The position numbers were made by a program, and so were the translations under genes. 64,000 nucleotides of DNA. It comes from Dugong dugon. Taxonomy: Eukaryota; Chordata; Mammalia; Sirenia; Dugongidae. The stretch's first letter is position 1, and each line of letters starts with the position of its first letter. Under the pieces are notes generated by a model, which made no database searches, was not told the origin of the DNA, and saw nothing but the letters and a program-made list of their open reading frames with translations. Below are positions 1-36,804 of this stretch, one piece after another. The stretch spans positions 567,501-631,500 of the forward strand of contig CM057475.1 in NCBI GenBank assembly GCA_030035585.1. Reading direction: 5' to 3'.

Positions 1-40
1 AGGGTTAGGGTTAGGGTTAGGGTTAGGGTTAGGGTTAGGG

Positions 41-60
41 TTTAATAAAAAACACATATT
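41..60 (+). repeat. AT-rich spacer 1 in the telomeric array
   Basis: A 20-bp insert, TTTAATAAAAAACACATATT, lies between GGG at 38-40 and GGG at 61-63, where a normal array would have TTA. It is identical to spacer 3. Confidence 0.95.
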
Positions 61-207
61 GGGTTAGGGTTAGGGTTAGGGTTAGGGTTAGGGTTAGGGT
101 TAGGGTTAGGGTTAGGGTTAGGGTTAGGGTTAGGGTTAGGGTTAGGGTTAGGGTTAGGGTTAGGGTTAGGGTTAGGGTTAGGGTTAGGGTTAGGGTTAGG
201 GTTAGGG

Positions 208-226
208 TTAATAAAAAACACATATT
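208..226 (+). repeat. AT-rich spacer 2 in the telomeric array
   Basis: A 19-bp version of the spacer. It begins TTAATA rather than TTTAATA, so it is one T shorter at the left end than spacers 1 and 3. Confidence 0.95.
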
Positions 227-373
227 GGGTTAGGGTTAGGGTTAGGGTTAGGGTTAGGGTTAGGGTTAGGGTTAGGGTTAGGGTTAGGGTTAGGGTTAGG
301 GTTAGGGTTAGGGTTAGGGTTAGGGTTAGGGTTAGGGTTAGGGTTAGGGTTAGGGTTAGGGTTAGGGTTAGGG

Positions 374-393
374 TTTAATAAAAAACACATATT
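374..393 (+). repeat. AT-rich spacer 3 in the telomeric array
   Basis: A 20-bp spacer identical to spacer 1. It is followed by GGG at 394-396. Confidence 0.95.
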
Positions 394-540
394 GGGTTAG
401 GGTTAGGGTTAGGGTTAGGGTTAGGGTTAGGGTTAGGGTTAGGGTTAGGGTTAGGGTTAGGGTTAGGGTTAGGGTTAGGGTTAGGGTTAGGGTTAGGGTT
501 AGGGTTAGGGTTAGGGTTAGGGTTAGGGTTAGGGTTAGGG

Positions 541-559
541 TTTAATAAAAACACATATT
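541..559 (+). repeat. AT-rich spacer 4, the last before pure TTAGGG
   Basis: A 19-bp version with one fewer A in the A-run (TTTAATAAAAACACATATT). The array to its right contains no further spacer up to the gap. Confidence 0.95.
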
Positions 560-958
560 GGGTTAGGGTTAGGGTTAGGGTTAGGGTTAGGGTTAGGGTT
601 AGGGTTAGGGTTAGGGTTAGGGTTAGGGTTAGGGTTAGGGTTAGGGTTAGGGTTAGGGTTAGGGTTAGGGTTAGGGTTAGGGTTAGGGTTAGGGTTAGGG
701 TTAGGGTTAGGGTTAGGGTTAGGGTTAGGGTTAGGGTTAGGGTTAGGGTTAGGGTTAGGGTTAGGGTTAGGGTTAGGGTTAGGGTTAGGGTTAGGGTTAG
801 GGTTAGGGTTAGGGTTAGGGTTAGGGTTAGGGTTAGGGTTAGGGTTAGGGTTAGGGTTAGGGTTAGGGTTAGGGTTAGGGTTAGGGTTAGGGTTAGGGTT
901 AGGGTTAGGGTTAGGGTTAGGGTTAGGGTTAGGGTTAGGGTTAGGGTTAGGGTTAGGG

Positions 959-963
959 TTAGG
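959..963 (+). other. Single-base deletion in the telomere array (TTAGG)
   Basis: One G is missing, giving ...GGGTTAGGTTAGGG... This shifts the phase of the array by one base. It may be a real variant or a consensus error. Confidence 0.85.
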
Positions 964-1929
964 TTAGGGTTAGGGTTAGGGTTAGGGTTAGGGTTAGGGT
1001 TAGGGTTAGGGTTAGGGTTAGGGTTAGGGTTAGGGTTAGGGTTAGGGTTAGGGTTAGGGTTAGGGTTAGGGTTAGGGTTAGGGTTAGGGTTAGGGTTAGG
1101 GTTAGGGTTAGGGTTAGGGTTAGGGTTAGGGTTAGGGTTAGGGTTAGGGTTAGGGTTAGGGTTAGGGTTAGGGTTAGGGTTAGGGTTAGGGTTAGGGTTA
1201 GGGTTAGGGTTAGGGTTAGGGTTAGGGTTAGGGTTAGGGTTAGGGTTAGGGTTAGGGTTAGGGTTAGGGTTAGGGTTAGGGTTAGGGTTAGGGTTAGGGT
1301 TAGGGTTAGGGTTAGGGTTAGGGTTAGGGTTAGGGTTAGGGTTAGGGTTAGGGTTAGGGTTAGGGTTAGGGTTAGGGTTAGGGTTAGGGTTAGGGTTAGG
1401 GTTAGGGTTAGGGTTAGGGTTAGGGTTAGGGTTAGGGTTAGGGTTAGGGTTAGGGTTAGGGTTAGGGTTAGGGTTAGGGTTAGGGTTAGGGTTAGGGTTA
1501 GGGTTAGGGTTAGGGTTAGGGTTAGGGTTAGGGTTAGGGTTAGGGTTAGGGTTAGGGTTAGGGTTAGGGTTAGGGTTAGGGTTAGGGTTAGGGTTAGGGT
1601 TAGGGTTAGGGTTAGGGTTAGGGTTAGGGTTAGGGTTAGGGTTAGGGTTAGGGTTAGGGTTAGGGTTAGGGTTAGGGTTAGGGTTAGGGTTAGGGTTAGG
1701 GTTAGGGTTAGGGTTAGGGTTAGGGTTAGGGTTAGGGTTAGGGTTAGGGTTAGGGTTAGGGTTAGGGTTAGGGTTAGGGTTAGGGTTAGGGTTAGGGTTA
1801 GGGTTAGGGTTAGGGTTAGGGTTAGGGTTAGGGTTAGGGTTAGGGTTAGGGTTAGGGTTAGGGTTAGGGTTAGGGTTAGGGTTAGGGTTAGGGTTAGGGT
1901 TAGGGTTAGGGTTAGGGTTAGGGTTAGGG

Positions 1930-1933
1930 TATA
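1930..1933 (+). other. Single-base insertion in the telomere array (TATAGGG)
   Basis: GGG-TATA-GGG replaces GGG-TTA-GGG, an extra A within the TT. With the TTAGG at 959-963 it is one of only two deviations in about 7.2 kb. Both lie in the left third, nearer the spacer-bearing end. Confidence 0.85.
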
Positions 1934-4900
1934 GGGTTAGGGTTAGGGTTAGGGTTAGGGTTAGGGTTAGGGTTAGGGTTAGGGTTAGGGTTAGGGTTAG
2001 GGTTAGGGTTAGGGTTAGGGTTAGGGTTAGGGTTAGGGTTAGGGTTAGGGTTAGGGTTAGGGTTAGGGTTAGGGTTAGGGTTAGGGTTAGGGTTAGGGTT
2101 AGGGTTAGGGTTAGGGTTAGGGTTAGGGTTAGGGTTAGGGTTAGGGTTAGGGTTAGGGTTAGGGTTAGGGTTAGGGTTAGGGTTAGGGTTAGGGTTAGGG
2201 TTAGGGTTAGGGTTAGGGTTAGGGTTAGGGTTAGGGTTAGGGTTAGGGTTAGGGTTAGGGTTAGGGTTAGGGTTAGGGTTAGGGTTAGGGTTAGGGTTAG
2301 GGTTAGGGTTAGGGTTAGGGTTAGGGTTAGGGTTAGGGTTAGGGTTAGGGTTAGGGTTAGGGTTAGGGTTAGGGTTAGGGTTAGGGTTAGGGTTAGGGTT
2401 AGGGTTAGGGTTAGGGTTAGGGTTAGGGTTAGGGTTAGGGTTAGGGTTAGGGTTAGGGTTAGGGTTAGGGTTAGGGTTAGGGTTAGGGTTAGGGTTAGGG
2501 TTAGGGTTAGGGTTAGGGTTAGGGTTAGGGTTAGGGTTAGGGTTAGGGTTAGGGTTAGGGTTAGGGTTAGGGTTAGGGTTAGGGTTAGGGTTAGGGTTAG
2601 GGTTAGGGTTAGGGTTAGGGTTAGGGTTAGGGTTAGGGTTAGGGTTAGGGTTAGGGTTAGGGTTAGGGTTAGGGTTAGGGTTAGGGTTAGGGTTAGGGTT
2701 AGGGTTAGGGTTAGGGTTAGGGTTAGGGTTAGGGTTAGGGTTAGGGTTAGGGTTAGGGTTAGGGTTAGGGTTAGGGTTAGGGTTAGGGTTAGGGTTAGGG
2801 TTAGGGTTAGGGTTAGGGTTAGGGTTAGGGTTAGGGTTAGGGTTAGGGTTAGGGTTAGGGTTAGGGTTAGGGTTAGGGTTAGGGTTAGGGTTAGGGTTAG
2901 GGTTAGGGTTAGGGTTAGGGTTAGGGTTAGGGTTAGGGTTAGGGTTAGGGTTAGGGTTAGGGTTAGGGTTAGGGTTAGGGTTAGGGTTAGGGTTAGGGTT
3001 AGGGTTAGGGTTAGGGTTAGGGTTAGGGTTAGGGTTAGGGTTAGGGTTAGGGTTAGGGTTAGGGTTAGGGTTAGGGTTAGGGTTAGGGTTAGGGTTAGGG
3101 TTAGGGTTAGGGTTAGGGTTAGGGTTAGGGTTAGGGTTAGGGTTAGGGTTAGGGTTAGGGTTAGGGTTAGGGTTAGGGTTAGGGTTAGGGTTAGGGTTAG
3201 GGTTAGGGTTAGGGTTAGGGTTAGGGTTAGGGTTAGGGTTAGGGTTAGGGTTAGGGTTAGGGTTAGGGTTAGGGTTAGGGTTAGGGTTAGGGTTAGGGTT
3301 AGGGTTAGGGTTAGGGTTAGGGTTAGGGTTAGGGTTAGGGTTAGGGTTAGGGTTAGGGTTAGGGTTAGGGTTAGGGTTAGGGTTAGGGTTAGGGTTAGGG
3401 TTAGGGTTAGGGTTAGGGTTAGGGTTAGGGTTAGGGTTAGGGTTAGGGTTAGGGTTAGGGTTAGGGTTAGGGTTAGGGTTAGGGTTAGGGTTAGGGTTAG
3501 GGTTAGGGTTAGGGTTAGGGTTAGGGTTAGGGTTAGGGTTAGGGTTAGGGTTAGGGTTAGGGTTAGGGTTAGGGTTAGGGTTAGGGTTAGGGTTAGGGTT
3601 AGGGTTAGGGTTAGGGTTAGGGTTAGGGTTAGGGTTAGGGTTAGGGTTAGGGTTAGGGTTAGGGTTAGGGTTAGGGTTAGGGTTAGGGTTAGGGTTAGGG
3701 TTAGGGTTAGGGTTAGGGTTAGGGTTAGGGTTAGGGTTAGGGTTAGGGTTAGGGTTAGGGTTAGGGTTAGGGTTAGGGTTAGGGTTAGGGTTAGGGTTAG
3801 GGTTAGGGTTAGGGTTAGGGTTAGGGTTAGGGTTAGGGTTAGGGTTAGGGTTAGGGTTAGGGTTAGGGTTAGGGTTAGGGTTAGGGTTAGGGTTAGGGTT
3901 AGGGTTAGGGTTAGGGTTAGGGTTAGGGTTAGGGTTAGGGTTAGGGTTAGGGTTAGGGTTAGGGTTAGGGTTAGGGTTAGGGTTAGGGTTAGGGTTAGGG
4001 TTAGGGTTAGGGTTAGGGTTAGGGTTAGGGTTAGGGTTAGGGTTAGGGTTAGGGTTAGGGTTAGGGTTAGGGTTAGGGTTAGGGTTAGGGTTAGGGTTAG
4101 GGTTAGGGTTAGGGTTAGGGTTAGGGTTAGGGTTAGGGTTAGGGTTAGGGTTAGGGTTAGGGTTAGGGTTAGGGTTAGGGTTAGGGTTAGGGTTAGGGTT
4201 AGGGTTAGGGTTAGGGTTAGGGTTAGGGTTAGGGTTAGGGTTAGGGTTAGGGTTAGGGTTAGGGTTAGGGTTAGGGTTAGGGTTAGGGTTAGGGTTAGGG
4301 TTAGGGTTAGGGTTAGGGTTAGGGTTAGGGTTAGGGTTAGGGTTAGGGTTAGGGTTAGGGTTAGGGTTAGGGTTAGGGTTAGGGTTAGGGTTAGGGTTAG
4401 GGTTAGGGTTAGGGTTAGGGTTAGGGTTAGGGTTAGGGTTAGGGTTAGGGTTAGGGTTAGGGTTAGGGTTAGGGTTAGGGTTAGGGTTAGGGTTAGGGTT
4501 AGGGTTAGGGTTAGGGTTAGGGTTAGGGTTAGGGTTAGGGTTAGGGTTAGGGTTAGGGTTAGGGTTAGGGTTAGGGTTAGGGTTAGGGTTAGGGTTAGGG
4601 TTAGGGTTAGGGTTAGGGTTAGGGTTAGGGTTAGGGTTAGGGTTAGGGTTAGGGTTAGGGTTAGGGTTAGGGTTAGGGTTAGGGTTAGGGTTAGGGTTAG
4701 GGTTAGGGTTAGGGTTAGGGTTAGGGTTAGGGTTAGGGTTAGGGTTAGGGTTAGGGTTAGGGTTAGGGTTAGGGTTAGGGTTAGGGTTAGGGTTAGGGTT
4801 AGGGTTAGGGTTAGGGTTAGGGTTAGGGTTAGGGTTAGGGTTAGGGTTAGGGTTAGGGTTAGGGTTAGGGTTAGGGTTAGGGTTAGGGTTAGGGTTAGGG

Positions 4901-7783
4901 TTAGGGTTAGGGTTAGGGTTAGGGTTAGGGTTAGGGTTAGGGTTAGGGTTAGGGTTAGGGTTAGGGTTAGGGTTAGGGTTAGGGTTAGGGTTAGGGTTAG
5001 GGTTAGGGTTAGGGTTAGGGTTAGGGTTAGGGTTAGGGTTAGGGTTAGGGTTAGGGTTAGGGTTAGGGTTAGGGTTAGGGTTAGGGTTAGGGTTAGGGTT
5101 AGGGTTAGGGTTAGGGTTAGGGTTAGGGTTAGGGTTAGGGTTAGGGTTAGGGTTAGGGTTAGGGTTAGGGTTAGGGTTAGGGTTAGGGTTAGGGTTAGGG
5201 TTAGGGTTAGGGTTAGGGTTAGGGTTAGGGTTAGGGTTAGGGTTAGGGTTAGGGTTAGGGTTAGGGTTAGGGTTAGGGTTAGGGTTAGGGTTAGGGTTAG
5301 GGTTAGGGTTAGGGTTAGGGTTAGGGTTAGGGTTAGGGTTAGGGTTAGGGTTAGGGTTAGGGTTAGGGTTAGGGTTAGGGTTAGGGTTAGGGTTAGGGTT
5401 AGGGTTAGGGTTAGGGTTAGGGTTAGGGTTAGGGTTAGGGTTAGGGTTAGGGTTAGGGTTAGGGTTAGGGTTAGGGTTAGGGTTAGGGTTAGGGTTAGGG
5501 TTAGGGTTAGGGTTAGGGTTAGGGTTAGGGTTAGGGTTAGGGTTAGGGTTAGGGTTAGGGTTAGGGTTAGGGTTAGGGTTAGGGTTAGGGTTAGGGTTAG
5601 GGTTAGGGTTAGGGTTAGGGTTAGGGTTAGGGTTAGGGTTAGGGTTAGGGTTAGGGTTAGGGTTAGGGTTAGGGTTAGGGTTAGGGTTAGGGTTAGGGTT
5701 AGGGTTAGGGTTAGGGTTAGGGTTAGGGTTAGGGTTAGGGTTAGGGTTAGGGTTAGGGTTAGGGTTAGGGTTAGGGTTAGGGTTAGGGTTAGGGTTAGGG
5801 TTAGGGTTAGGGTTAGGGTTAGGGTTAGGGTTAGGGTTAGGGTTAGGGTTAGGGTTAGGGTTAGGGTTAGGGTTAGGGTTAGGGTTAGGGTTAGGGTTAG
5901 GGTTAGGGTTAGGGTTAGGGTTAGGGTTAGGGTTAGGGTTAGGGTTAGGGTTAGGGTTAGGGTTAGGGTTAGGGTTAGGGTTAGGGTTAGGGTTAGGGTT
6001 AGGGTTAGGGTTAGGGTTAGGGTTAGGGTTAGGGTTAGGGTTAGGGTTAGGGTTAGGGTTAGGGTTAGGGTTAGGGTTAGGGTTAGGGTTAGGGTTAGGG
6101 TTAGGGTTAGGGTTAGGGTTAGGGTTAGGGTTAGGGTTAGGGTTAGGGTTAGGGTTAGGGTTAGGGTTAGGGTTAGGGTTAGGGTTAGGGTTAGGGTTAG
6201 GGTTAGGGTTAGGGTTAGGGTTAGGGTTAGGGTTAGGGTTAGGGTTAGGGTTAGGGTTAGGGTTAGGGTTAGGGTTAGGGTTAGGGTTAGGGTTAGGGTT
6301 AGGGTTAGGGTTAGGGTTAGGGTTAGGGTTAGGGTTAGGGTTAGGGTTAGGGTTAGGGTTAGGGTTAGGGTTAGGGTTAGGGTTAGGGTTAGGGTTAGGG
6401 TTAGGGTTAGGGTTAGGGTTAGGGTTAGGGTTAGGGTTAGGGTTAGGGTTAGGGTTAGGGTTAGGGTTAGGGTTAGGGTTAGGGTTAGGGTTAGGGTTAG
6501 GGTTAGGGTTAGGGTTAGGGTTAGGGTTAGGGTTAGGGTTAGGGTTAGGGTTAGGGTTAGGGTTAGGGTTAGGGTTAGGGTTAGGGTTAGGGTTAGGGTT
6601 AGGGTTAGGGTTAGGGTTAGGGTTAGGGTTAGGGTTAGGGTTAGGGTTAGGGTTAGGGTTAGGGTTAGGGTTAGGGTTAGGGTTAGGGTTAGGGTTAGGG
6701 TTAGGGTTAGGGTTAGGGTTAGGGTTAGGGTTAGGGTTAGGGTTAGGGTTAGGGTTAGGGTTAGGGTTAGGGTTAGGGTTAGGGTTAGGGTTAGGGTTAG
6801 GGTTAGGGTTAGGGTTAGGGTTAGGGTTAGGGTTAGGGTTAGGGTTAGGGTTAGGGTTAGGGTTAGGGTTAGGGTTAGGGTTAGGGTTAGGGTTAGGGTT
6901 AGGGTTAGGGTTAGGGTTAGGGTTAGGGTTAGGGTTAGGGTTAGGGTTAGGGTTAGGGTTAGGGTTAGGGTTAGGGTTAGGGTTAGGGTTAGGGTTAGGG
7001 TTAGGGTTAGGGTTAGGGTTAGGGTTAGGGTTAGGGTTAGGGTTAGGGTTAGGGTTAGGGTTAGGGTTAGGGTTAGGGTTAGGGTTAGGGTTAGGGTTAG
7101 GGTTAGGGTTAGGGTTAGGGTTAGGGTTAGGGTTAGGGTTAGGGTTAGGGTTAGGGTTAGGGTTAGGGTTAGGGTTAGGGTTAGGGTTAGGGTTAGGGTT
7201 AGGGTTAGGGTTAGGGTTAGGGTTAGGGTTAGGGTTAGGGTTAGGGTTAGGGTTAGGGTTAGGGTTAGGGTTAGGGTTAGGGTTAGGGTTAGGGTTAGGG
7301 TTAGGGTTAGGGTTAGGGTTAGGGTTAGGGTTAGGGTTAGGGTTAGGGTTAGGGTTAGGGTTAGGGTTAGGGTTAGGGTTAGGGTTAGGGTTAGGGTTAG
7401 GGTTAGGGTTAGGGTTAGGGTTAGGGTTAGGGTTAGGGTTAGGGTTAGGGTTAGGGTTAGGGTTAGGGTTAGGGTTAGGGTTAGGGTTAGGGTTAGGGTT
7501 AGGGTTAGGGTTAGGGTTAGGGTTAGGGTTAGGGTTAGGGTTAGGGTTAGGGTTAGGGTTAGGGTTAGGGTTAGGGTTAGGGTTAGGGTTAGGGTTAGGG
7601 TTAGGGTTAGGGTTAGGGTTAGGGTTAGGGTTAGGGTTAGGGTTAGGGTTAGGGTTAGGGTTAGGGTTAGGGTTAGGGTTAGGGTTAGGGTTAGGGTTAG
7701 GGTTAGGGTTAGGGTTAGGGTTAGGGTTAGGGTTAGGGTTAGGGTTAGGGTTAGGGTTAGGGTTAGGGTTAGGGTTAGGGTTA

Positions 7784-7983
7784 NNNNNNNNNNNNNNNNN
7801 NNNNNNNNNNNNNNNNNNNNNNNNNNNNNNNNNNNNNNNNNNNNNNNNNNNNNNNNNNNNNNNNNNNNNNNNNNNNNNNNNNNNNNNNNNNNNNNNNNNN
7901 NNNNNNNNNNNNNNNNNNNNNNNNNNNNNNNNNNNNNNNNNNNNNNNNNNNNNNNNNNNNNNNNNNNNNNNNNNNNNNNNNNN
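7784..7983. other. Assembly gap, 200 N
   Basis: A run of exactly 200 N. A round number like this is a conventional scaffold-join placeholder, not a measured distance. The true order, orientation and distance between the telomere contig and the satellite contig are therefore unknown. Confidence 0.99.
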
Positions 7984-8664
7984 GCTTTAGTCAGCAAAAC
8001 CAACATCTTTTGCTATCCTCTAGCTGAAGGCAGACAATCTACCTGTTTGGCTTTGAAAGCCACTAGGACCTTCTTTCCTGATAGGCAAAATTCCCTTTGA
8101 AAACCAGGGGATTCAAATACTTGCTAGGCCTGCACTCTCCAGCCTTTTCCCAAGCAGGGAACATTGGAGATAGCAGCTTGTGCTGGCCGGACACTTTCTT
8201 CTAACAAAACTGAAAACTTAAGTAGATTCAGTTAAGCAGCTTGAGGGAAACGCTAAGTTTTGGTTTCTCTTTCATATTGTTAAAGGGGAACTTAAACCTA
8301 CTGCTAACAAAGTTTTTACTCAGGAGAACTAGGGTTTTGCCTCCTTCGCGTTCCAGAACGGGAGAAAGGCGGTTTCTCTTCTCCTCCGGCGATACCGTCT
8401 GTAAAGCCCTATTCTCAGCTACGCAGCACAGAATGCCACCCGGAATGCTGGAAAGCCTGAACGGCTTCAACTAGTTGAAAGGGAAAAAAGTCTTAGGCTG
8501 TATCCAGGTAGACAATGCACAGGCAACGTTCTTAGGCATGTAACACAGAGGGACTCTCAAACACAGAAAGTGAATCGTGCTCCGTTCATCCCCAGGCTGA
8601 GAGCAACAAGCTCATGCATTCTCTTGCAGGCAGGGAAGAAGCTACATGCTGGTATTAAGCACAC
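7984..8664. repeat. First satellite monomer after the gap, hybrid A-type
   Basis: It starts two bases inside the monomer (GCTTTAG, lacking the leading AA of the HindIII site). Its left part carries variants of the unusual A monomers at 23021 and 31907: CCAACATCTTTTGC near the start, and GAAAGGCGG where other classes have GAAACGCGG or GAAACACGG. From about 8421 it carries standard A-type variants (CTACGCAGC, GCCACCCGG). It is therefore a mosaic with a switch between about 8394 and 8421. Confidence 0.85.
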
Positions 8665-10714
8665 AAGCTTTAGTTACCAAAACTGAACCTATTCTGCTGT
8701 CCTCTAGCTGAAGGCAGACAATCTACCAGTTTGACTTTGAAAGCCACTAGTACCTTCTTTCCTGATAGGCAAAATTCCCTTTGAAAACCAGGGGATTCAA
8801 ATACTTGCTAGGCCTGCACTCTCCAGCCTTCTCCCAAGCAGGGAAGATTGGAGATAGCAGCTTGTGCTGGCCGGACACTTTCTTCTAACAAAACTGAAAA
8901 CTTAAGTAGATTCAGTTAAGCAGCTTGAGGGAAACGCTAAGTTTTGGTTTCTCTTTCATATTGTTAAAGGGGAACTTAAACCTACTGCTAACAAAGTTTT
9001 TACTCAGGAGAACTAGGCTTTTGCCTCCCTCGCGTTGCAGAATGGGAGAAACGCGGTTTCTCTTCTCCTTTAGCGATACCGTTGTAAAGCCCTATTCTCA
9101 ACTACGCAGCACAGAATACATCCCGGAATGCTAGAAAGCCTGAACGGCTTCAACTAGTTGAAAGGGAAAAAAGTCTTAGGCTTTATCCAGGTAGACAATG
9201 CACAGGCAACGTTCTTAGGCATGTAACAGAGAGGGACTTTCAAACACAGAAAGTGAATCGTGCTCCGTTCATCCCCAGGCTGACAGCAACAAGCTCATGC
9301 TTTCTCTTTCAGGCAGGGAAGAAGCTACATGCTCGTGTTAAGCACAAAAGCTTTAGTCAGCAAAACCGAACCTCGTCTGCTGTCCTCTAGCTGAAGGCAG
9401 ACAATCTACCTGTTTGGCTTTGAAAGCCACTAGGACCTTCTTTCCTGATAGGCAAAATTCCCTTTGAAAACCAGGGGATTCAAATACTTGCTAGGCCTGC
9501 ACTCTCCAGCCTTCTCCCAAGCAGGGAACATTGGAGAAAGCAGCTTGTGCTGGCCGGACACTCTCTTCTAACAAAACTGAAAACTTAAGTAGATTCAGTT
9601 AAGCAGCTTGAGGGAAACGCTAAGTTTTGGTTTCTCTTTCATCTTGTGAAAGGGGAACTTATACCTACTGCTAACAAATTTTCTACTCAGGAGAACTAGG
9701 GTTTTGCCTCCTTCGCGTTCCAGAACGGGAGAAACGCGGTTTGTCTTCTCCTTTGGCGATACCGTCTGTAAAGCGGTAATCTCAGCCGCGCAGCCCAGAA
9801 TACCTCCCGGAATGCTAGAAAGCCTCACCGGCTTCAACTGCTTGAAAGGGAGAAACGTCATACGCTTTATCAAAGTAGACAATGCACAGGATCTGTCTTA
9901 GGCATGTAACACAGAAGGACTTTCAAACACAGAATGTGAATCGTGCCCCGTTCATCCCCAGACTGAGAGCAACAAGCTCATGCTTTCTCTTTCAGGCAGG
10001 GAAGAAGCTACATGCTCGTGTTAAGCACGAAAGCTTTAGTCAGCAAAACCGAACCTCTTCTGCTGTCCTCTAGCTGAAGGCAGACAATCTACCTGTTTGG
10101 CTTTGAAAGCCAATACTACCTTCATTCCTGGTAGGCAAACTTCCCTTTGAAAACCAGGGGATTCAAATACGTGCTAGGCCTGCACTCTCCAGCCTTCTCC
10201 CAAGCAGGGAACATTGGAGAAAGGAGCTTGTGCTGGGCGGACACTTTCTCCTAACAAAACTGAAAACTTAAGTAGATTCAGTTAAGCAGCTTGACGGAGA
10301 ACGCTGTCGTTTGCTTTCTCTTTCATATGGTGAATAGGGAACTTAAACCTACTGCTACCAAAACTTTTACTCAGGGGAACTACGGTTTTGCCTCCCTCGC
10401 GTTGCAGAATGGGAGAAACGCGGTTTCTCTTCTCCTTTAGCGATACCGTTGTAAAGCCCTATTCTCAACTACGCAGCACAGAATACATCCCGGAATGCTA
10501 GAAAGCCTGAACGGCTTCAACTAGTTGAAAGGGAAAAAAGTCTTAGGCTTTATCCAGGTAGACAATGCACAGGCAACGTTCTTAGGCATGTAACACAGAG
10601 GGACTTTCAAACACAGAAAGTGAATCGTGCTCCGTTCATCCCCAGGCTGAGAGCAACAAGCTCATGCTTTCTCTTTCAGGCAGGGAAGAAGCTACATGCT
10701 GGTGTTAAGCACAC
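7984..10714. repeat. HOR unit, hybrid-A B C D
   Basis: Monomers 7984-8664 (hybrid A), 8665-9347 (B), 9348-10030 (C) and 10031-10714 (D). The unit follows the 2734-bp plan but its first two bases are lost at the gap and its first monomer is one base shorter than standard A. Confidence 0.9.
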
Positions 10715-13448
10715 AAGCTTTAGTCAGCAAAACCTAACCTCTTCTGCTATCCTCTAGCTGAAGGCAGACAATCTACCTGTTTGGCTTTGAAAGCCACTAG
10801 TACCTTCTTTCCTGATAGGCAAAATTCCCTTTGAAAACCAGGGGATTCAAATACTTGCTAGGCCTGCACTCTCCAGCCTTTTCCCAAGCAGGGAACATTG
10901 GAGATAGCAGCTTGTGCTGGCCGGACACTTTCTTCTAACAAAACTGAAAACTTAAGAAGATTCAGTTAAGCAGCTTGAGGGAAACGCTAAGTTTTGGTTT
11001 CTCTTTCATGTTGTGAAAGGGGAACTTAAACCTACTGCTAACAAAGATTTTACTCAGGAGAACTAGGGTTTTGCCTCCTTCGCGTTCCAGAACGGGAGAA
11101 ACACGGTTTATCTTCTCCTTCGGCGATATCGTCTGTAAAGCCCTATTCTCAGCTACGCAGCACAGAATGCCACCCGGAATGCTGGAAAGCCTGAACGGCT
11201 TCAACTAGTTGAAAGGGAAAAAAGTCTTAGGCTGTATCCAGGTAGACAATGCACAGGCAACGTTCTTAGGCATGTAACACAGAGGGACTCTCAAACACAG
11301 AAAGTGAATCGTGCTCCGTTCATCCCCAGGCTGAGAGCAACAAGCTCATGCATTCTCTTGCAGGCAGGGAAGAAGCTACATGCTGGTATTAAGCACACAA
11401 GCTTTAGTTACCAAAACTGAACCTATTCTGCTGTCCTCTAGCTGAAGGCAGACAATCTACCAGTTTGACTTTGAAAGCCACTAGTACCTTCTTTCCTGAT
11501 AGGCAAAATTCCCTTTGAAAACCAGGGGATTCAAATACTTGCTAGGCCTGCACTCTCCAGCCTTCTCCCAAGCAGGGAAGATTGGAGATAGCAGCTTGTG
11601 CTGGCCGGACACTTTCTTCTAACAAAACTGAAAACTTAAGTAGATTCAGTTAAGCAGCTTGAGGGAAACGCTAAGTTTTGGTTTCTCTTTCATATTGTTA
11701 AAGGGGAACTTAAACCTACTGCTAACAAAGTTTTTACTCAGGAGAACTAGGCTTTTGCCTCCCTCGCGTTGCAGAATGGGAGAAACGCGGTTTCTCTTCT
11801 CCTTTAGCGATACCGTTGTAAAGCCCTATTCTCAACTACGCAGCACAGAATACATCCCGGAATGCTAGAAAGCCTGAACGGCTTCAACTAGTTGAAAGGG
11901 AAAAAAGTCTTAGGCTTTATCCAGGTAGACAATGCACAGGCAACGTTCTTAGGCATGTAACAGAGAGGGACTTTCAAACACAGAAAGTGAATCGTGCTCC
12001 GTTCATCCCCAGGCTGACAGCAACAAGCTCATGCTTTCTCTTTCAGGCAGGGAAGAAGCTACATGCTCGTGTTAAGCACAAAAGCTTTAGTCAGCAAAAC
12101 CGAACCTCGTCTGCTGTCCTCTAGCTGAAGGCAGACAATCTACCTGTTTGGCTTTGAAAGCCACTAGGACCTTCTTTCCTGATAGGCAAAATTCCCTTTG
12201 AAAACCAGGGGATTCAAATACTTGCTAGGCCTGCACTCTCCAGCCTTCTCCCAAGCAGGGAACATTGGAGAAAGCAGCTTGTGCTGGCCGGACACTCTCT
12301 TCTAACAAAACTGAAAACTTAAGTAGATTCAGTTAAGCAGCTTGAGGGAAACGCTAAGTTTTGGTTTCTCTTTCATCTTGTGAAAGGGGAACTTATACCT
12401 ACTGCTAACAAATTTTCTACTCAGGAGAACTACGGTTTTGCCTCCTTCGCGTTCCAGAACGGGAGAAACGCGGTTTGTCTTCTCCTTTGGCGATACCGTC
12501 TGTAAAGCGGTAATCTCAGCCGCGCAGCCCAGAATACCTCCCGGAATGCTAGAAAGCCTCACCGGCTTCAACTGCTTGAAAGGGAGAAACGTCATACGCT
12601 TTATCAAAGTAGACAATGCACAGGATCTGTCTTAGGCATGTAACACAGAAGGACTTTCAAACACAGAATGTGAATCGTGCCCCGTTCATCCCCAGACTGA
12701 GAGCAACAAGCTCATGCTTTCTCTTTCAGGCAGGGAAGAAGCTACATGCTCGTGTTAAGCACGAAAGCTTTAGTCAGCAAAACCGAACCTCTTCTGCTGT
12801 CCTCTAGCTGAAGGCAGACAATCTACCTGTTTGGCTTTGAAAGCCAATACTACCTTCATTCCTGGTAGGCAAACTTCCCTTTGAAAACCAGGGGATTCAA
12901 ATACGTGCTAGGCCTGCACTCTCCAGCCTTCTCCCAAGCAGGGAACATTGGAGAAAGGAGCTTGTGCTGGGCGGACACTTTCTCCTAACAAAACTGAAAA
13001 CTTAAGTAGATTCAGTTAAGCAGCTTGACGGAGAACGCTGTCGTTTGCTTTCTCTTTCATATGGTGAATAGGGAACTTAAACCTACTGCTACCAAAACTT
13101 TTACTCAGGGGAACTACGGTTTTGCCTCCCTCGCGTTGCAGAATGGGAGAAACGCGGTTTCTCTTCTCCTTTAGCGATACCGTTGTAAAGCCCTATTCTC
13201 AACTACGCAGCACAGAATACATCCCGGAATGCTAGAAAGCCTGAACGGCTTCAACTAGTTGAAAGGGAAAAAAGTCTTAGGCTTTATCCAGGTAGACAAT
13301 GCACAGGCAACGTTCTTAGGCATGTAACACAGAGGGACTTTCAAACACAGAAAGTGAATCGTGCTCCGTTCATCCCCAGGCTGAGAGCAACAAGCTCATG
13401 CTTTCTCTTTCAGGCAGGGAAGAAGCTACATGCTGGTGGTAAGCATAC
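10715..13448. repeat. HOR unit, A B C D, 2734 bp
   Basis: Monomers start at 10715, 11399, 12082 and 12765. The A monomer has the rare base A at 11110 (GGTTTATCTTC), seen again only at 37769. The D monomer ends with the variant GGTGGTAAGCATAC, also seen just before 18918. Confidence 0.93.
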
Positions 13449-15499
13449 AAGCTTTAGTCAGCAAAACCTAACCTCTTCTGCTATCCTCTAGCTGAAGGCA
13501 GACAATCTACCTGTTTGGCTTTGAAAGCCACTAGTACCTTCTTTCCTGATAGGCAAAATTCCCTTTGAAAACCAGGGGATTCAAATACTTGCTAGGCCTG
13601 CACTCTCCAGCCTTTTCCCAAGCAGGGAACATTGGAGATAGCAGCTTGTGCTGGCCGGACACTTTCTTCTAACAAAACTGAAAACTTAAGAAGATTCAGT
13701 TAAGCAGCTTGAGGGAAACGCTAAGTTTTGGTTTGTCTTTCATATTGTTAAAGGGGAACTTAAACCTACTGCTAACAAAGTTTTTACTCAGGAGAACTAG
13801 GGTTTTGCCTCCTTCGCGTTCCAGAACGGGAGAAACGCGGTTTCTCTTCTCCTCCGGCGATACCGTCTGTAAAGCCCTATTCTCAGCTTCGCAGCACAGA
13901 ATGCCTCCCGGAATACTGGAAAGCCAGAACGGCTTCAAGTAGTTGAAAGGGAAAAAAGTCTTAGGCTTTATCCAGGTAGACAATGCACAGGCAACGTTCT
14001 TAGGCATGAAACACAGAGAGACTTTCAAACACAGAAAGTGAATCGTGCTCCGTTCATCCCCAGGCTGAGAGCAACAAGCTCATGCTTTCTCTTGCAGGCA
14101 GGGAAGAAGCTACATGCTGATGTTAAGCACACAAGCTTGAGTTACAAAAACTGAACCTATTCTGCTGTCCTCTAGCTGAAGGCAGACAATCTACCTGTTT
14201 GGCTTTGAAAGCCAATACTACCTTCATTCCTGGTAGGCAAACTTCCCTTTGAAAACCAGGGGATTCAAATACGTGCTAGGCCTGCACTCTCCAGCCTTCT
14301 CCCAAGCAGGGAACATTGGAGAAAGCAGCTTGTGCTGGGCGGACACTTTCTCCTAACAAAACTGAAAACTTAAGTAGATTCAGTTAAGCAGCTTGACGGA
14401 GAACGCTAAGTTTTGGTTTCTCTTTCATCTTGTGAAAGGGGAACTTAAACCTACTGCTAACAAAGTTTTTACTCAGGAGAACTAGGCTTTTGCCTCCCTC
14501 GCGTTCCAGAATGGGAGAAACGCGGTTTCTCTTCTCCTTTAGCGATACCGTTGTAAAGCCCTATTCTCAACTACGCAGCACAGAATACATCCCGGAATGC
14601 TAGAAAGCCTGAACGGCTTCAACTAGTTGAAAGGGAAAAAAGTCTTAGGCTGTATCCAGGTAGACAATGCACAGGCAACGTTCTTAGGCATGTAACAGAG
14701 AGGGACTTTCAAACACAGAAAGTGAATCGTGCTCCGTTCATCCCCAGGCTGACAGCAACAAGCTCATGCTTTCTCTTTCAGGCAGGGAAGAAGCTACATG
14801 CTCGTGTTAAGCACAAAAGCTTTAGTCAGCAAAACCGAACCTCGTCTGCTGTCCTCTAGCTGAAGGCAGACAATCTACCTGTTTGGCTTTGAAAGCCACT
14901 AGGACCTTCTTTCCTGATAGGGAAAATTCCATTTGAAAACCAGGGGATTCAAATACGTGCTAGGCCTGCACTCTCCAGCCTTCTTCCAAGCAGGGAACAT
15001 TGGAGAAAGGAGCTTGTGCTGGGCGGACACATTCTCCTAACAAAACTGAAAACTTAAGTAGATTCAGTTAAGCAGCTTGAGGGAAACGCTAAGTTTTGGT
15101 TTCTCTTTCATCTTGTGAAAGGGGAACTTATACCTACTGCTAACAAATTTTCTACTCAGGAGAACTACGGTTTTGCCTCCTTCGCGTTCCAGAACGGGAG
15201 AAACGCGGTTTGTCTTCTCCTTTGGCGATACCGTCTGTAAAGCGGTAATCTCAGCCGCGCAGCCCAGAATACCTCCCGGAATGCTAGAAAGCCTCACCGG
15301 CTTCAACTGCTTGAAAGGGAGAAACGTCATACGCTTTATCAAAGTAGACAATGCACAGGATCTGTCTTAGGCATGTAACACAGAAGGACTTTCAAACACA
15401 GAATGTGAATCGTGCCCCGTTCATCCCCAGACTGAGAGCAACAAGCTCATGCTTTCTCTTTCAGGCAGGGAAGAAGCTACATGCTCGTGTTAAGCACGA
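13449..15499. repeat. Irregular satellite block: A2, D/B hybrid, recombinant monomer
   Basis: Three monomers break the ABCD order. 13449-14132 is a variant A (A2), with CTTCGCAGC and GGAATACTGG. 14133-14816 is D-like in its left half (GCCAATACTACC, GACGGAGAACGCT) and B-like in its right half (CTAGGCTTTTGCC). 14817-15499 begins like the monomer at 20286 (GATAGGGAAAATTCCATTTG) and changes to C type at the duplication junction near 15038-15065. Confidence 0.88.
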
Positions 15500-16183
15500 A
15501 AGCTTTAGTCAGCAAAACCGAACCTCTTCTGCTGTCCTCTAGCTGAAGGCAGACAATCTACCTGTTTGGCTTTGAAAGCCAATACTACCTTCATTCCTGG
15601 TAGGCAAACTTCCCTTTGAAAACCAGGGGATTCAAATACGTGCTAGGCCTGCACTCTCCAGCCTTCTCCCAAGCAGGGAACATTGGAGAAAGGAGCTTGT
15701 GCTGGGCGGACACTTTCTCCTAACAAAACTGAAAACTTAAGTAGATTCAGTTAAGCAGCTTGACGGAGAACGCTGTCGTTTGCTTTCTCTTTCATATGGT
15801 GAATAGGGAACTTAAACCTACTGCTACCAAAACTTTTACTCAGGGGAACTACGGTTTTGCCTCCCTCGCGTTGCAGAATGGGAGAAACGCGGTTTCTCTT
15901 CTCCTTTAGCGATACCGTTGTAAAGCCCTATTCTCAACTACGCAGCACAGAATACATCCCGGAATGCTAGAAAGCCTGAACGGCTTCAACTAGTTGAAAG
16001 GGAAAAAAGTCTTAGGCTTTATCCAGGTAGACAATGCACAGGCAACGTTCTTAGGCATGTAACACAGAGGGACTTTCAAACACAGAAAGTGAATCGTGCT
16101 CCGTTCATCCCCAGGCTGAGAGCAACAAGCTCATGCTTTCTCTTTCAGGCAGGGAAGAAGCTACATGCTGGTGTTAAGCACAC
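15500..16183. repeat. Solitary D monomer following the duplication junction
   Basis: A standard D monomer (GTCGTTTGCTTTC, CATATGGTGAATAGGG, CAGGGGAACTACGG). It stands outside a full ABCD unit because its upstream neighbour is the recombinant monomer. Confidence 0.9.
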
Positions 16184-18917
16184 AAGCTTTAGTCAGCAAA
16201 ACCTAACCTCTTCTGCTATCCTCTAGCTGAAGGCAGACAATCTACCTGTTTGGCTTTGAAAGCCACTAGTACCTTCTTTCCTGATAGGCAAAATTCCCTT
16301 TGAAAACCAGGGGATTCAAATACTTGCTAGGCCTGCACTCTCCAGCCTTTTCCCAAGCAGGGAACATTGGAGATAGCAGCTTGTGCTGGCCGGACACTTT
16401 CTTCTAACAAAACTGAAAACTTAAGAAGATTCAGTTAAGCAGCTTGAGGGAAACGCTAAGTTTTGGTTTCTCTTTCATGTTGTGAAAGGGGAACTTAAAC
16501 CTACTGCTAACAAAGATTTTACTCAGGAGAACTAGGGTTTTGCCTCCTTCGCGTTCCAGAACGGGAGAAACACGGTTTCTCTTCTCCTTCGGCGATATCG
16601 TCTGTAAAGCCCTATTCTCAGCTACGCAGCACAGAATGCCACCCGGAATGCTGGAAAGCCTGAACGGCTTCAACTAGTTGAAAGGGAAAAAAGTCTTAGG
16701 CTGTATCCAGGTAGACAATGCACAGGCAACGTTCTTAGGCATGTAACACAGAGGGACTCTCAAACACAGAAAGTGAATCGTGCTCCGTTCATCCCCAGGC
16801 TGAGAGCAACAAGCTCATGCATTCTCTTGCAGGCAGGGAAGAAGCTACATGCTGGTATTAAGCACACAAGCTTTAGTTATCAAAACTGAACCTATTCTGC
16901 TGTCCTCTAGCTGAAGGCAGACAATCTACCAGTTTGACTTTGAAAGCCACTAGTACCTTCTTTCCTGATAGGCAAAATTCCCTTTGAAAACCAGGGGATT
17001 CAAATACTTGCTAGGCCTGCACTCTCCAGCCTTCTCCCAAGCAGGGAAGATTGGAGATAGCAGCTTGTGCTGGCCGGACACTTTCTTCTAACAAAACTGA
17101 AAACTTAAGTAGATTCAGTTAAGCAGCTTGAGGGAAACGCTAAGTTTTGGTTTCTCTTTCATATTGTTAAAGGGGAACTTAAACCTACTGCTAACAAAGT
17201 TTTTACTCAGGAGAACTAGGCTTTTGCCTCCCTCGCGTTGCAGAATGGGAGAAACGCGGTTTCTCTTCTCCTTTAGCGATACCGTTGTAAAGCCCTATTC
17301 TCAACTACGCAGCACAGAATACATCCCGGAATGCTAGAAAGCCTGAACGGCTTCAACTAGTTGAAAGGGAAAAAAGTCTTAGGCTTTATCCAGGTAGACA
17401 ATGCACAGGCAACGTTCTTAGGCATGTAACAGAGAGGGACTTTCAAACACAGAAAGTGAATCGTGCTCCGTTCATCCCCAGGCTGACAGCAACAAGCTCA
17501 TGCTTTCTCTTTCAGGCAGGGAAGAAGCTACATGCTCGTGTTAAGCACAAAAGCTTTAGTCAGCAAAACCGAACCTCGTCTGCTGTCCTCTAGCTGAAGG
17601 CAGACAATCTACCTGTTTGGCTTTGAAAGCCACTAGGACCTTCTTTCCTGATAGGCAAAATTCCCTTTGAAAACCAGGGGATTCAAATACTTGCTAGGCC
17701 TGCACTCTCCAGCCTTCTCCCAAGCAGGGAACATTGGAGAAAGCAGCTTGTGCTGGCCGGACACTCTCTTCTAACAAAACTGAAAACTTAAGTAGATTCA
17801 GTTAAGCAGCTTGAGGGAAACGCTAAGTTTTGGTTTCTCTTTCATCTTGTGAAAGGGGAACTTATACCTACTGCTAACAAATTTTCTACTCAGGAGAACT
17901 ACGGTTTTGCCTCCTTCGCGTTCCAGAACGGGAGAAACGCGGTTTGTCTTCTCCTTTGGCGATACCGTCTGTAAAGCGGTAATCTCAGCCGCGCAGCCCA
18001 GAATACCTCCCGGAATGCTAGAAAGCCTCACCGGCTTCAACTGCTTGAAAGGGAGAAACGTCATACGCTTTATCAAAGTAGACAATGCACAGGATCTGTC
18101 TTAGGCATGTAACACAGAAGGACTTTCAAACACAGAATGTGAATCGTGCCCCGTTCATCCCCAGACTGAGAGCAACAAGCTCATGCTTTCTCTTTCAGGC
18201 AGGGAAGAAGCTACATGCTCGTGTTAAGCACGAAAGCTTTAGTCAGCAAAACCGAACCTCTTCTGCTGTCCTCTAGCTGAAGGCAGACAATCTACCTGTT
18301 TGGCTTTGAAAGCCAATACTACCTTCATTCCTGGTAGGCAAACTTCCCTTTGAAAACCAGGGGATTCAAATACGTGCTAGGCCTGCACTCTCCAGCCTTC
18401 TCCCAAGCAGGGAACATTGGAGAAAGGAGCTTGTGCTGGGCGGACACTTTCTCCTAACAAAACTGAAAACTTAAGTAGATTCAGTTAAGCAGCTTGACGG
18501 AGAACGCTGTCGTTTGCTTTCTCTTTCATATGGTGAATAGGGAACTTAAACCTACTGCTACCAAAACTTTTACTCAGGGGAACTACGGTTTTGCCTCCCT
18601 CGCGTTGCAGAATGGGAGAAACGCGGTTTCTCTTCTCCTTTAGCGATACCGTTGTAAAGCCCTATTCTCAACTACGCAGCACAGAATACATCCCGGAATG
18701 CTAGAAAGCCTGAACGGCTTCAACTAGTTGAAAGGGAAAAAAGTCTTAGGCTTTATCCAGGTAGACAATGCACAGGCAACGTTCTTAGGCATGTAACACA
18801 GAGGGACTTTCAAACACAGAAAGTGAATCGTGCTCCGTTCATCCCCAGGCTGAGAGCAACAAGCTCATGCTTTCTCTTTCAGGCAGGGAAGAATCTACAT
18901 GCTGGTGGTAAGCATAC
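16184..18917. repeat. HOR unit, A B C D, 2734 bp
   Basis: Monomers start at 16184, 16868, 17551 and 18234. It is the 5469-bp-shifted copy of the unit at 10715. It differs by a few bases, for example C instead of A at the site matching 11110, TTATCAAA instead of TTACCAAA near 16877, and GAATCTAC instead of GAAGCTAC near 18893. Confidence 0.93.
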
Positions 18918-19601
18918 AAGCTTTAGTCAGCAAAACCTAACCTCTTCAGCTATCCTCTAGCTGAAGGCAGACAATCTACCTGTTTGGCTTTGAAAGCCAC
19001 TAGTACCTTCTTTCCTGATAGGCAAAATTCCCTTTGAAAACCAGGGGATTCAAATACTTGCTAGGCCTGCACTCTCCAGCCTTTTCCCAAGCAGGGAACA
19101 TTGGAGATAGCAGCTTGTGCTGGCCGGACACTTTCTTCTAACAAAACTGAAAACTTAAGAAGATTCAGTTAAGCAGCTTGAGGGAAACGCTAAGTTTTGG
19201 TTTGTCTTTCATATTGTTAAAGGGGAACTTAAACCTACTGCTAACAAAGTTTTTACTCAGGAGAACTAGGGTTTTGCCTCCTTCGCGTTCCAGAACGGGA
19301 GAAACGCGGTTTCTCTTCTCCTCCGGCGATACCGTCTGTAAAGCCCTATTCTCAGCTTCGCAGCACAGAATGCCTCCCGGAATACTGGAAAGCCAGAACG
19401 GCTTCAAGTAGTTGAAAGGGAAAAAAGTCTTAGGCTTTATCCAGGTAGACAATGCACAGGCAACGTTCTTAGGCATGAAACACAGAGAGACTTTCAAACA
19501 CAGAAAGTGAATCGTGCTCCGTTCATCCCCAGGCTGAGAGCAACAAGCTCATGCTTTCTCTTGCAGGCAGGGAAGAAGCTACATGCTGATGTTAAGCACA
19601 C

Positions 19602-20285
19602 AAGCTTGAGTTACAAAAACTGAACCTATTCTGCTGTCCTCTAGCTGAAGGCAGACAATCTACCTGTTTGGCTTTGAAAGCCAATACTACCTTCATTCCT
19701 GGTAGGCAAACTTCCCTTTGAAAACCAGGGGATTCAAATACGTGCTAGGCCTGCACTCTCCAGCCTTCTCCCAAGCAGGGAACATTGGAGAAAGCAGCTT
19801 GTGCTGGGCGGACACTTTCTCCTAACAAAACTGAAAACTTAAGTAGATTCAGTTAAGCAGCTTGACGGAGAACGCTAAGTTTTGGTTTCTCTTTCATCTT
19901 GTGAAAGGGGAACTTAAACCTACTGCTAACAAAGTTTTTACTCAGGAGAACTAGGCTTTTGCCTCCCTCGCGTTCCAGAATGGGAGAAACGCGGTTTCTC
20001 TTCTCCTTTAGCGATACCGTTGTAAAGCCCTATTCTCAACTACGCAGCACAGAATACATCCGGGAATGCTAGAAAGCCTGAACGGCTTCAACTAGTTGAA
20101 AGGGAAAAAAGTCTTAGGCTGTATCCAGGTAGACAATGCACAGGCAACGTTCTTAGGCATGTAACAGAGAGGGACTTTCAAACACAGAAAGTGAATCGTG
20201 CTCCGTTCATCCCCAGGCTGACAGCAACAAGCTCATGCTTTCTCTTTCAGGCAGGGAAGAAGCTACATGCTCGTGTTAAGCACAA
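19602..20285. repeat. Representative D/B hybrid monomer (X)
   Basis: It starts AAGCTTGAGTTAC instead of AAGCTTTAGTCAGC. The left half follows class D up to GACGGAGAACGCT; from TAAGTTTTGG onward it follows class B. It carries TACATCCGGGAATG at 20055-20068, a variant shared only with its duplicate at 28941. Confidence 0.88.
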
Positions 20286-20969
20286 AAGCTTTAGTCAGCA
20301 AAACCGAACCTCGTCTGCTGTCCTCTAGCTGAAGGCAGACAATCTACCTGTTTGGCTTTGAAAGCCACTAGGACCTTCTTTCCTGATAGGGAAAATTCCA
20401 TTTGAAAACCAGGGGATTCAAATACGTGCTAGGCCTGCACTCTCCAGCCTTCTTCCAAGCAGGGAACATTGGAGAAAGGAGCTTGTGCTGGGCGGACACA
20501 TTCTCCTAACAAAACTGAAAACTTAAGTAGATTCTGTTAAGCAGCTTGAAGGAGAACGCTGTCGTTTGCTTTCTCTTTCATATGGTGAATAGGGAACTTA
20601 AACCTACTGCTACCAAAATTTTTACTCAGGGCAACTAAGGTTTTGCCTCCCTCGCGTTCCAGAATGGGAGAAACGCGGTTTCTCTTCTCCTTTAGCGATA
20701 CCGTTGTAAAGCCCTATTCTCAACTACGCAGCACGGAATGCCTCCTGGAATGCTAGAAAGCCTGAACGGCTTCAACTAGTTGAAAGGGAAAAAAGTCTTA
20801 GGCTTTATCCAGGTAGACAATGCACAGGCAACGTTCTTAGGCATGTAACACAGAGGGACTTTCAAACACAGAAAGTGAATCGTGCTCCGTTCATCCCCAG
20901 GCTGAGAGCAACAAGCTCATGCTTTCTCTATCAGGCAGGGAAGAAGCTACATGCTCGTGTTAAGCACGA
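20286..20969. repeat. Representative Y monomer, intact
   Basis: The left half resembles C (CCTCGTCTGC, CACTAGGACC) with private changes GATAGGGAAAATTCC and CCTTCTTCC. The right half resembles D (GAACGCTGTCG, CATATGGTGAATAGGG) with private changes GATTCTGTTAAG and GGGCAACTAAGG. The monomer at 14817 shares only the left half, which locates the 5469-bp duplication junction. Confidence 0.85.
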
Positions 20970-23020
20970 AAGCTTTAGTCAGCAAAACCGAACCTCTTCT
21001 GCTGTCCTCTAGCTGAAGGCAGACAATCTACCTGTTTAGCTTTGAAAGCCAATACTACCTTCATTCCTGGTAGGCAAACTTCCCTTTGAAAACCAGGGGA
21101 TTCAAATACGTGCTAGGCCTGCACTCTCCGGCCTTCTCCCAAGCAGGGAACATTGGAGAAAGGAGCTTGTGCTGGGCAGACACTTTCTCCTAACAAAACT
21201 GAAAACTTAAGTAGATTCAGTTAAGCAGCTTGAGGGAAACGCTAAGTTTTGGTTTCTCTTTCATCTTGTGAAAGGGGAACTTATACCTACTGCTAACAAA
21301 TTTTCTACTCAGGAGAACTACGGTTTTGCCTCCTTCGCGTTCCAGAACGGGAGAAACGCGGTTTGTCTTCTCCTTTGGCGATACCGTCTGTAAAGCGGTA
21401 TTCTCAGCCGCGTAGCCCAGAATACCTCCCGGAATGCTAGAAAGCCTCACCGGCTTCAGCTGCTTGAAAGGGAGAAACGTCATACACTTTATCAAAGTAG
21501 ACAATGCACAGGATCTGTCTTAGGCATGTAACGCAGAGGGACTTTCAAACACAGAAAGTGAATCGTGCCCCGTTCATCCCCAGACTGAGAGCAACAAGCT
21601 CATGCTTTCTCTATCAGGCAGGGAAGAAGCTACATGCTCGTGTTAAGCACGAAAGCTTTAGTCAGCAAAACCGAACCTCTTCTGCTGTCCTCTAGCTGAA
21701 GGCAGACAATCTACCTGTTTAGCTTTGAAAGCCAATACTACCTTCATTCCTGGTAGGCAAACTTCCCTTTGAAAACCAGGGGATTCAAATACGTGCTATG
21801 CCTGCACTCTCCAGCCTTCTCCCAAGCAGGGAACATTGGAGAAAGGAGCTTGTGCTGGGCAGACACTTTCTCCTAACAAAACTGAAAACTTAAGTAGATT
21901 CAGTTAAGCAGCTTGAGGGAAAAGCTAAGTTTTGGTTTCTCTTTCATATTGTTAAAGGGGAACTTAAACCTACTGCTAACAAAGTTTTTACTCAGGAGAA
22001 CTAGGGTTTTGCCTCCTTCGCGTTCCAGAACGGGAGAAACGCGGTTTCTCTTCTCCTCCGGCGATACCGTCTGTAAAGCCCTATTCTCAGCTTCGCAGCA
22101 CAGAATGCCTCCCGGAATACTGGAAAGCCAGAACGGCTTCAAGTAGTTGAAAGGGAAAAAAGTCTTAGGCTTTATCCAGGTAGACAATGCACAGGCAACG
22201 TTCTTAGGCATGAAACACAGAGAGACTTTCAAACACAGAAAGTGAATCGTGCTCCGTTCATCCCCAGGCTGAGAGCAACAAGCTCATGCTTTCTCTTGCA
22301 GGCAGGGAAGAAGCTACATGCTGATGTTAAGCACACAAGCTTGAGTTACAAAAACTGAACCTATTCTGCTGTCCTCTAGCTGAAGGCAGACAATCTACCT
22401 GTTTGGCTTTGAAAGCCAATACTACCTTCATTCCTGGTAGGCAAACTTCCCTTTGAAAACCAGGGGATTCAAATACGTGCTAGGCCTGCACTCTCCAGCC
22501 TTCTCCCAAGCAGGGAACATTGGAGAAAGCAGCTTGTGCTGGGCGGACACTTTCTCCTAACAAAACTGAAAACTTAAGTAGATTCAGTTAAGCAGCTTGA
22601 CGGAGAACGCTAAGTTTTGGTTTCTCTTTCATATTGTTAAAGGGGAACTTAAACCTACTGCTAACAAAGTTTTTACTCAGGAGAACTAGGCTTTTGCCTC
22701 CCTCGCGTTCCAGAATGGGAGAAACGCGGTTTCTCTTCTCCTTTAGCGATACCGTTGTAAAGCCCTATTCTCAACTACGCAGCACAGAATGCCTCCCGGA
22801 ATGCTAGAAAGCCTGAACGGCTTCAACTAGTTGAAAGGGAAAAAAGTCTTAGGCTTTATCCAGGTAGACAATGCACAGGCAACGTTCTTAGGCATGTAAC
22901 ACAGAGGGACTTTCAAACACAGAAAGTGAATCGTGCTCCGTTCATCACCAGGCTGAGAGCAACAAGCTCATGCTTTCTCTTTCAGGCAGGGAAGAAGCTA
23001 CATGCTGGTGTTAAGCAAAC

Positions 23021-31400: not shown

Positions 31401-31906
31401 GAACATTGGAGAAAGCAGCTTGTGCTGGGCGGACACTTTCTCCTAACAAAACTGAAAACTTAAGTAGATTCAGTTAAGCAGCTTGACGGAGAACGCTAAG
31501 TTTTGGTTTCTCTTTCATATTGTTAAAGGGGAACTTAAACCTACTGCTAACAAAGTTTTTACTCAGGAGAACTAGGCTTTTGCCTCCCTCGCGTTCCAGA
31601 ATGGGAGAAACGCGGTTTCTCTTCTCCTTTAGCGATACCGTTGTAAAGCCCTATTCTCAACTACGCAGCACAGAATGCCTCCCGGAATGCTAGAAAGCCT
31701 GAACGGCTTCAACTAGTTGAAAGGGAAAAAAGTCTTAGGCTTTATCCAGGTAGACAATGCACAGGCAACGTTCTTAGGCATGTAACACAGAGGGACTTTC
31801 AAACACAGAAAGTGAATCGTGCTCCGTTCATCACCAGGCTGAGAGCAACAAGCTCATGCTTTCTCTTTCAGGCAGGGAAGAAGCTACATGCTGGTGTTAA
31901 GCAAAC
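28488..31906. repeat. Irregular satellite block, second copy
   Basis: Monomers start at 28488, 29172, 29856, 30539 and 31223. Each lies exactly 8886 bp after its counterpart at 19602, 20286, 20970, 21653 and 22337. Shared private variants include CATCCGGG at 28943, GCTATGCCTG near 30682 and TTCATCACCAGG near 31829. Confidence 0.93.
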
Positions 31907-36689: not shown

Positions 36690-36757
36690 AAGCTTTAGTC
36701 AGCAAAACCGAACCTCTTCTGCTGTCCTCTAGCTGAAGGCAGACAATCTACCTGTTT

Positions 36758-36770
36758 GGCTTTGAAAGCC
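36758..36770. other. 13-bp inverted repeat GGCTTT-G-AAAGCC (example copy)
   Basis: Six-base complementary arms around one base, present in most monomers. It is broken in class B (GACTTTGAAAGCC) and in the monomers at 20970, 21653 and their duplicates (AGCTTTGAAAGCC). Confidence 0.85.
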
Positions 36771-36804
36771 AATACTACCTTCATTCCTGGTAGGCAAACT
36801 TCCC

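Follow-up and report, generated by a model that had tools for sequence, protein, structure and literature searches.

An inward-pointing telomere array in the dugong assembly is almost certainly an assembly error involving a short-arm piece

The terminal telomere of vertebrates consists of a (TTAGGG)n array. The array analysed here resembles such a telomere, including the one on scaffold C25 of the same genome, in that it is perfect toward the tip and interrupted on the inner side. It differs in lying internally, at a scaffold gap, and in having a 22-23-bp spacer at regular intervals in its base. Telomeric repeats beside satellite are described at the fusion sites of the Indian muntjac (PMC2760882). 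As at the present locus, TTAGGG adjoins centromeric-type satellite there in one direction. In contrast, the main muntjac arrays are 168-837 bp long and were sequenced through, while the array described here is 7.8 kb long and is followed by a gap. Short-arm sequence that is near-identical on several chromosomes and lies beside satellite is known from the human acrocentric chromosomes (PMC10172130). The dugong genome shows the same arrangement, although the sequence and the species are different and the likeness is one of sequence only.

Assembly errors of related form have also been described. According to the Vertebrate Genomes Project report (PMC8081667), homotype false duplications arise at contig boundaries and are about as long as a read. 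The present locus likewise has identical sequence at two contig ends, in this case over 10.2 kb, but the two copies have opposite orientations and are parted by a wedged contig. An earlier giraffe reference contained large inversion errors that were exposed by a later assembly (PMC12621783). There, as probably here, chromosome pieces had been deposited in the wrong orientation. The reversed piece in the dugong differs in being a short arm with its telomere, and its reversal was deduced without new reads.

The DNA analysed, referred to as the window, is the 64-kb stretch C18:567501-631500. Scaffold C18 is 84.2 Mb long and belongs to a genome of 3.16 Gb in 196 pieces. The features of the window are as follows.

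1..7783, + strand: terminal-type vertebrate telomere array, (TTAGGG)n, with its tip at 7783 and its inner side at 1
41..63, + strand: spacer copy 1, 23 bp, the same element as at the C25 and C162 telomeres
208..229, + strand: spacer copy 2, 22 bp, 24 TTAGGG past copy 1
374..396, + strand: spacer copy 3, 23 bp, 24 TTAGGG past copy 2
541..562, + strand: spacer copy 4, 22 bp, 24 TTAGGG past copy 3
959..963, + strand: single 5-bp variant repeat, TTAGG
1930..1936, + strand: single 7-bp variant repeat, TATAGGG
7784..7983, no strand: 200-N scaffold gap, read as a false join (C18:575284-575483)
7984..64000, + strand: left part of a separate satellite contig (C18:575484-785399), in monomers of 683-684 bp

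Every one of the 1279 exact copies of TTAGGG in the 64-kb window lies inside 1-7783, and CCCTAA is absent from the whole window. TRF reported 1-7783 as one array of period 6 with 98% matches. Neighbouring spacers are each time 144 bases apart, exactly 24 TTAGGG, and the repeat is perfect from 1937 through 7783. As in a terminal array, TTAGGG runs in tandem for several kilobases and is near-perfect at the tip end. All six interruptions fall in the left 25% of the array (P = 2e-4 under uniform placement, or P = 0.015 when the spacer cluster is counted as one event), which confirms the description in the earlier note of an array interrupted on the left and pure on the right. Taken alone, the pattern of interruptions inside the window is only suggestive of the polarity of the array.

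The spacer was also located on other scaffolds. The genome was searched with at most 2 mismatches, a setting that overlooks any copy containing indels, the fourth spacer of the window among them. Among the eight matches listed, three were on C18 (+), one on C25 (-) and four on C162 (-). A control pattern, the spacer read backward, gave no matches in the same genome search. The sites are C25:6384 (6.4 kb) and C162:14010-14460 (14.0-14.5 kb), and both scaffolds start with CCCTAA. On C25, a scaffold of 62 Mb, the CCCTAA start is followed by the spacer at 6.4 kb, by degenerate repeats and then by ordinary sequence. On C162 the CCCTAA start is followed by the spacers at 14 kb, and the inner flank beyond them reads N. 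Since telomeres in the correct orientation (C25, and C162 as far as it is readable) carry the spacer on their inner side, the polarity of the window array is fixed. The spacers on its left side bear out the earlier proposal that TTAGGG runs rightward in 1-7783, that its tip faces the gap at 7784-7983 and that the left is the inner side. Chromosomal DNA lies further left, beyond a stretch that reads N. The starts of 19 other scaffolds comprised six with CCCTAA, eight reading N and five of other sequence, and none carried a TTAGGG array; the ends of the same 19 comprised nine with TTAGGG and ten of other sequence, and none carried a CCCTAA array.

The run of N at 7784-7983 is exactly 200 long and is followed from 7984 by satellite, as had been noted earlier. 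The satellite occupies 56 kb (7984-64000) with 82 monomers of 683-684 bp on a single strand, mostly grouped in higher-order units of four monomers, about 2734 bp each. It has the form of a higher-order satellite, a long one-strand array in which monomers of ~684 bp are combined into larger units; the term ‘centromeric-type’ is used for it as a label by position and form only. A search of 7984-64000 against Rfam at gathering thresholds gave 0 matches. The literature was searched for a centromeric satellite of 684 bp; ‘684 bp’ was absent from the best 20 of 133 papers, and no published family was assigned.

The window sits 567.5 kb inside C18 with satellite on both sides. The suggestion that it might begin a chromosome was wrong, as both satellite and a short-arm block lie to its left. 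We named the pieces of C18 A (1-575283), B (575484-785399) and C (785600 onward); piece B ends at a second 200-N gap (C18:785400-785599). The first 10 kb of C18 is satellite without TTAGGG or CCCTAA, and the last 2.5 kb is without a telomere array. From C18:1 to ~461 kb, satellite was present in eight of the ten stretches read or sampled, always on the + strand. The part at C18:23001-457500 is known from nine 1.5-kb samples only, and gaps there could split piece A. A non-satellite short-arm block of ~88 kb follows at C18:461-550 kb, then a stretch of N and then the window. Chromosomal sequence joined to the left of the array, which the earlier note had held would speak against a misoriented telomere contig, is nearly what was found: the ~88-kb block is there, with N in the stretch adjoining the window. 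Across these N we infer the link between array and block. The satellite is + in piece B and - immediately past the gap at 785400-785599, so that the strand flips exactly there. At 850 kb a sample again shows the - strand, in divergent form (85%), and at 900 kb satellite is absent from the sample. The strands seen in the C18 samples agree with the matches from sequence searches.

A small divergent satellite island (82-85%) in two opposite orientations lies within the short-arm block at C18:485.5-487.6 kb. The samples at C18:60 kb, 260 kb and 900 kb and at C9:360 kb resemble the edge of the block at C18:462-467 kb (94-99%). The inner-edge sequence of the short-arm block thus recurs within the satellite region.

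The free end of A overlaps that of C. The sequence of C18:1-10245 is the reverse complement of 785600-795838 (10,239 bases) with 0 mismatches and six one-base indels, all of them in the 3.1 kb nearest the end of C, and the overlap extends to both contig ends. C18 starts with a higher-order unit of 12.3 kb, and a 700-bp piece of the overlap recurs at 100% elsewhere in the satellite array, at several places. Across the same length, the neighbouring 12.3-kb higher-order copy shows 186 mismatches; the next-best register shows 10 differing positions in 6,791. With the rate of this closest register, a Poisson model gives a probability of ~3e-7 for 0 mismatches in 10,239. Only the 10-kb register is special, and the end overlap stands despite the higher-order repeats. 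We believe that the free ends of A and C very probably represent the same place. If so, A must be turned round. The leading block, piece A, is bounded by gaps, and its reversal restores both the continuity of strand and the overlap with its neighbour.

The inward-pointing telomere is almost certainly an assembly error in which a short-arm piece was built back to front, rather than a biological oddity. Seen directly are the sequence, the two gaps, the strand flip, the overlap and the comparisons with C20, C25 and C162. From these we consider it highly likely that the array is an ordinary short-arm telomere, that A (C18:1-575283) was placed unreversed at the head of C18 and that B was wedged in at the join. 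The natural order from the centromere outward would be satellite (+), the ~88-kb short-arm block with the unread stretch, the spacer-bearing base and the TTAGGG tip, and the array would be the ordinary terminal telomere of an acrocentric-type short arm. Piece A, heading C18 unreversed, would have its tip facing inward. Its satellite end (C18:1) would then overlap the end of the long-arm contig (C18:785600) by ~10.2 kb, with the satellite-only contig 575484-785399 wedged between A and C. The wrong orientation was presumably chosen in scaffolding because contact data are ambiguous inside satellite. The leading block C18:1-575283, read in part only, is presumably one contig.

Piece B (C18:575484-785399, 210 kb) lies between two 200-N gaps and is satellite where seen. 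Its satellite is 91-95% like the free ends of A and C. A query of 650 bases from its right end came closest, among the matches listed, to A at 296-435 kb, with 98-99% identity (40 of 2556 candidates scored). As B resembles A at 296-435 kb more than it resembles the ends of A and C, it would not belong between those ends. Judged by these similarities, B is wedged between A and C, and it may come from the other haplotype or from an inner part of the array near C18:296-435 kb.

Copies of the short-arm block were found on other scaffolds. Ten samples from C20 comprised four of satellite (+), three reading N and three matching the block. The last, at 81.70, 81.75 and 81.78 Mb, match C18:464, 514 and 544 kb at 99.0-100%, on the same strand and collinearly. 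C20 ends in TTAGGG, and the cassette of satellite and block thus runs outward to a telomeric scaffold end. The end of C13 has satellite (+) and then block (+) and is cut inside the block, while the unplaced C142 has block (-) and then satellite (-), the layout expected after correction. A 500-base probe from the block gave 26 matches: 10 cover it in full with at least 98% identity, another at 100% is truncated where its scaffold ends, and 15 are weaker. The 11 strong copies fall on 11 scaffolds, five on unplaced pieces, two deep inside C8 and C10, and four within 1 Mb of the end of a large scaffold (outward on C20 and C13, inward on C18 and C9). On C10, four samples around the probe match gave no confirmation that the block is present. 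At C8:35.94-36.00 Mb there is a 97-99% copy deep in a large scaffold, seen with the probe and as collinear matches in two of four samples; none of the four contained satellite. The block (C18:461-550 kb) or the 500-base probe is 98-100% alike on C9, C13, C20, C142, C50, C59, C106 and C192. Several of the block-bearing scaffolds carry the same satellite alongside, an arrangement that resembles shared acrocentric short arms.

The earlier note had proposed a misoriented telomere contig at the 200-N join, to be corrected by reverse-complementing 1-7783. The orientation error stands, but the unit concerned would be C18:1-575283 and not the 7.8-kb array. A lone reversed contig of 7.8 kb would account for an array that is flush with the 200-N gap and has its tip facing the gap. 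However, the window lies 567 kb inside the scaffold, the same block leads in the same direction into the TTAGGG end of C20, and the first base of C18 overlaps the long-arm contig in reverse. Moreover, the inner side, judged by the spacers, is on the left, and flipping the array in place would not restore the usual order but would aim its tip at the short arm. We regard this explanation as very unlikely. It is also improbable, if slightly less so, that the short-arm piece was correctly built but comes from another chromosome or haplotype and was both misplaced and misoriented. As the block is shared, with strong copies of the probe on 11 scaffolds, it cannot by itself assign the piece to a chromosome. 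Against such an origin, the satellite end of A matches the long-arm contig of C18 over 10.2 kb with 0 mismatches, and for the right end of B all 98 matches listed lie on C18, 40 reaching at least 98%, in a search that scored 40 of 2556 candidates.

Scaffold C9 probably provides a second case. Its samples up to 540 kb, starting at base 1, are satellite (+), with the exception of one at 360 kb. From 550 to 620 kb the short-arm block was found in all eight samples at 99.3-100%, on the + strand. Past the block C9 reads N, and by 650 kb the samples are satellite (-), which continues through 1.2 Mb. From this layout, C9:1-650 kb is probably a second reversed short arm. No telomere is visible on C9, and the first 600 bases had no match in the opposite-strand part among the 133 matches listed (36 of 1780 candidates scored).

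The similar layout of C9 could also be taken to favour a genuine centromere-telomere fusion or internal telomere, in which the telomere of a short arm is joined head-to-tail with centromeric satellite as in the Indian muntjac. A tandem fusion would have exactly the order deposited for C18: subtelomere, rightward TTAGGG and then satellite. However, the join is an N gap, so that continuous sequence does not extend on both sides of the array. Nor is the array short: it measures 7,783 bp or more and its last 5.8 kb is perfect, while the main fusion-site blocks in the muntjac are given as 168-837 bases (PMC2760882). The left piece, finally, has satellite and no telomere at its start, where it overlaps the long-arm contig. 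We find a true fusion very unlikely. The earlier view that it was less likely than misassembly has been borne out by the N-gap join, the long perfect array and the overlap of A with C.

For the misassembled short arm, the evidence asks for a correction that would reverse C18:1-575283 as a whole and move 575484-785399 elsewhere. Such a correction is useful, since an 84-Mb scaffold would be headed by ~575 kb of reversed short arm followed by a wedged 210-kb satellite contig, and it names two contig ends that probably belong together. Left uncorrected, this assembly would lead surveys of internal telomeres or of chromosome fusions to record a false fusion. With this reading, the biological claim of an inward telomere falls away.

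The spacer, with its steps of exactly 24 repeats, is the part that might repay study. At least three telomeres have this 22-23-bp AT-rich element at their base. Exact searches for it in public viral contigs and prokaryote genomes gave no match. One tentative reading, which we think may well be wrong, is that the spacer multiplies in 167-bp steps, through unequal exchange or copying from telomeric circles, and passes between chromosome ends. Were that so, and we hold the combined proposal to be equally doubtful, the bases of telomeres in this genome would evolve like higher-order satellite. On C162 the interval between spacers is exactly 24 TTAGGG once, and then 19 and 16 repeats.
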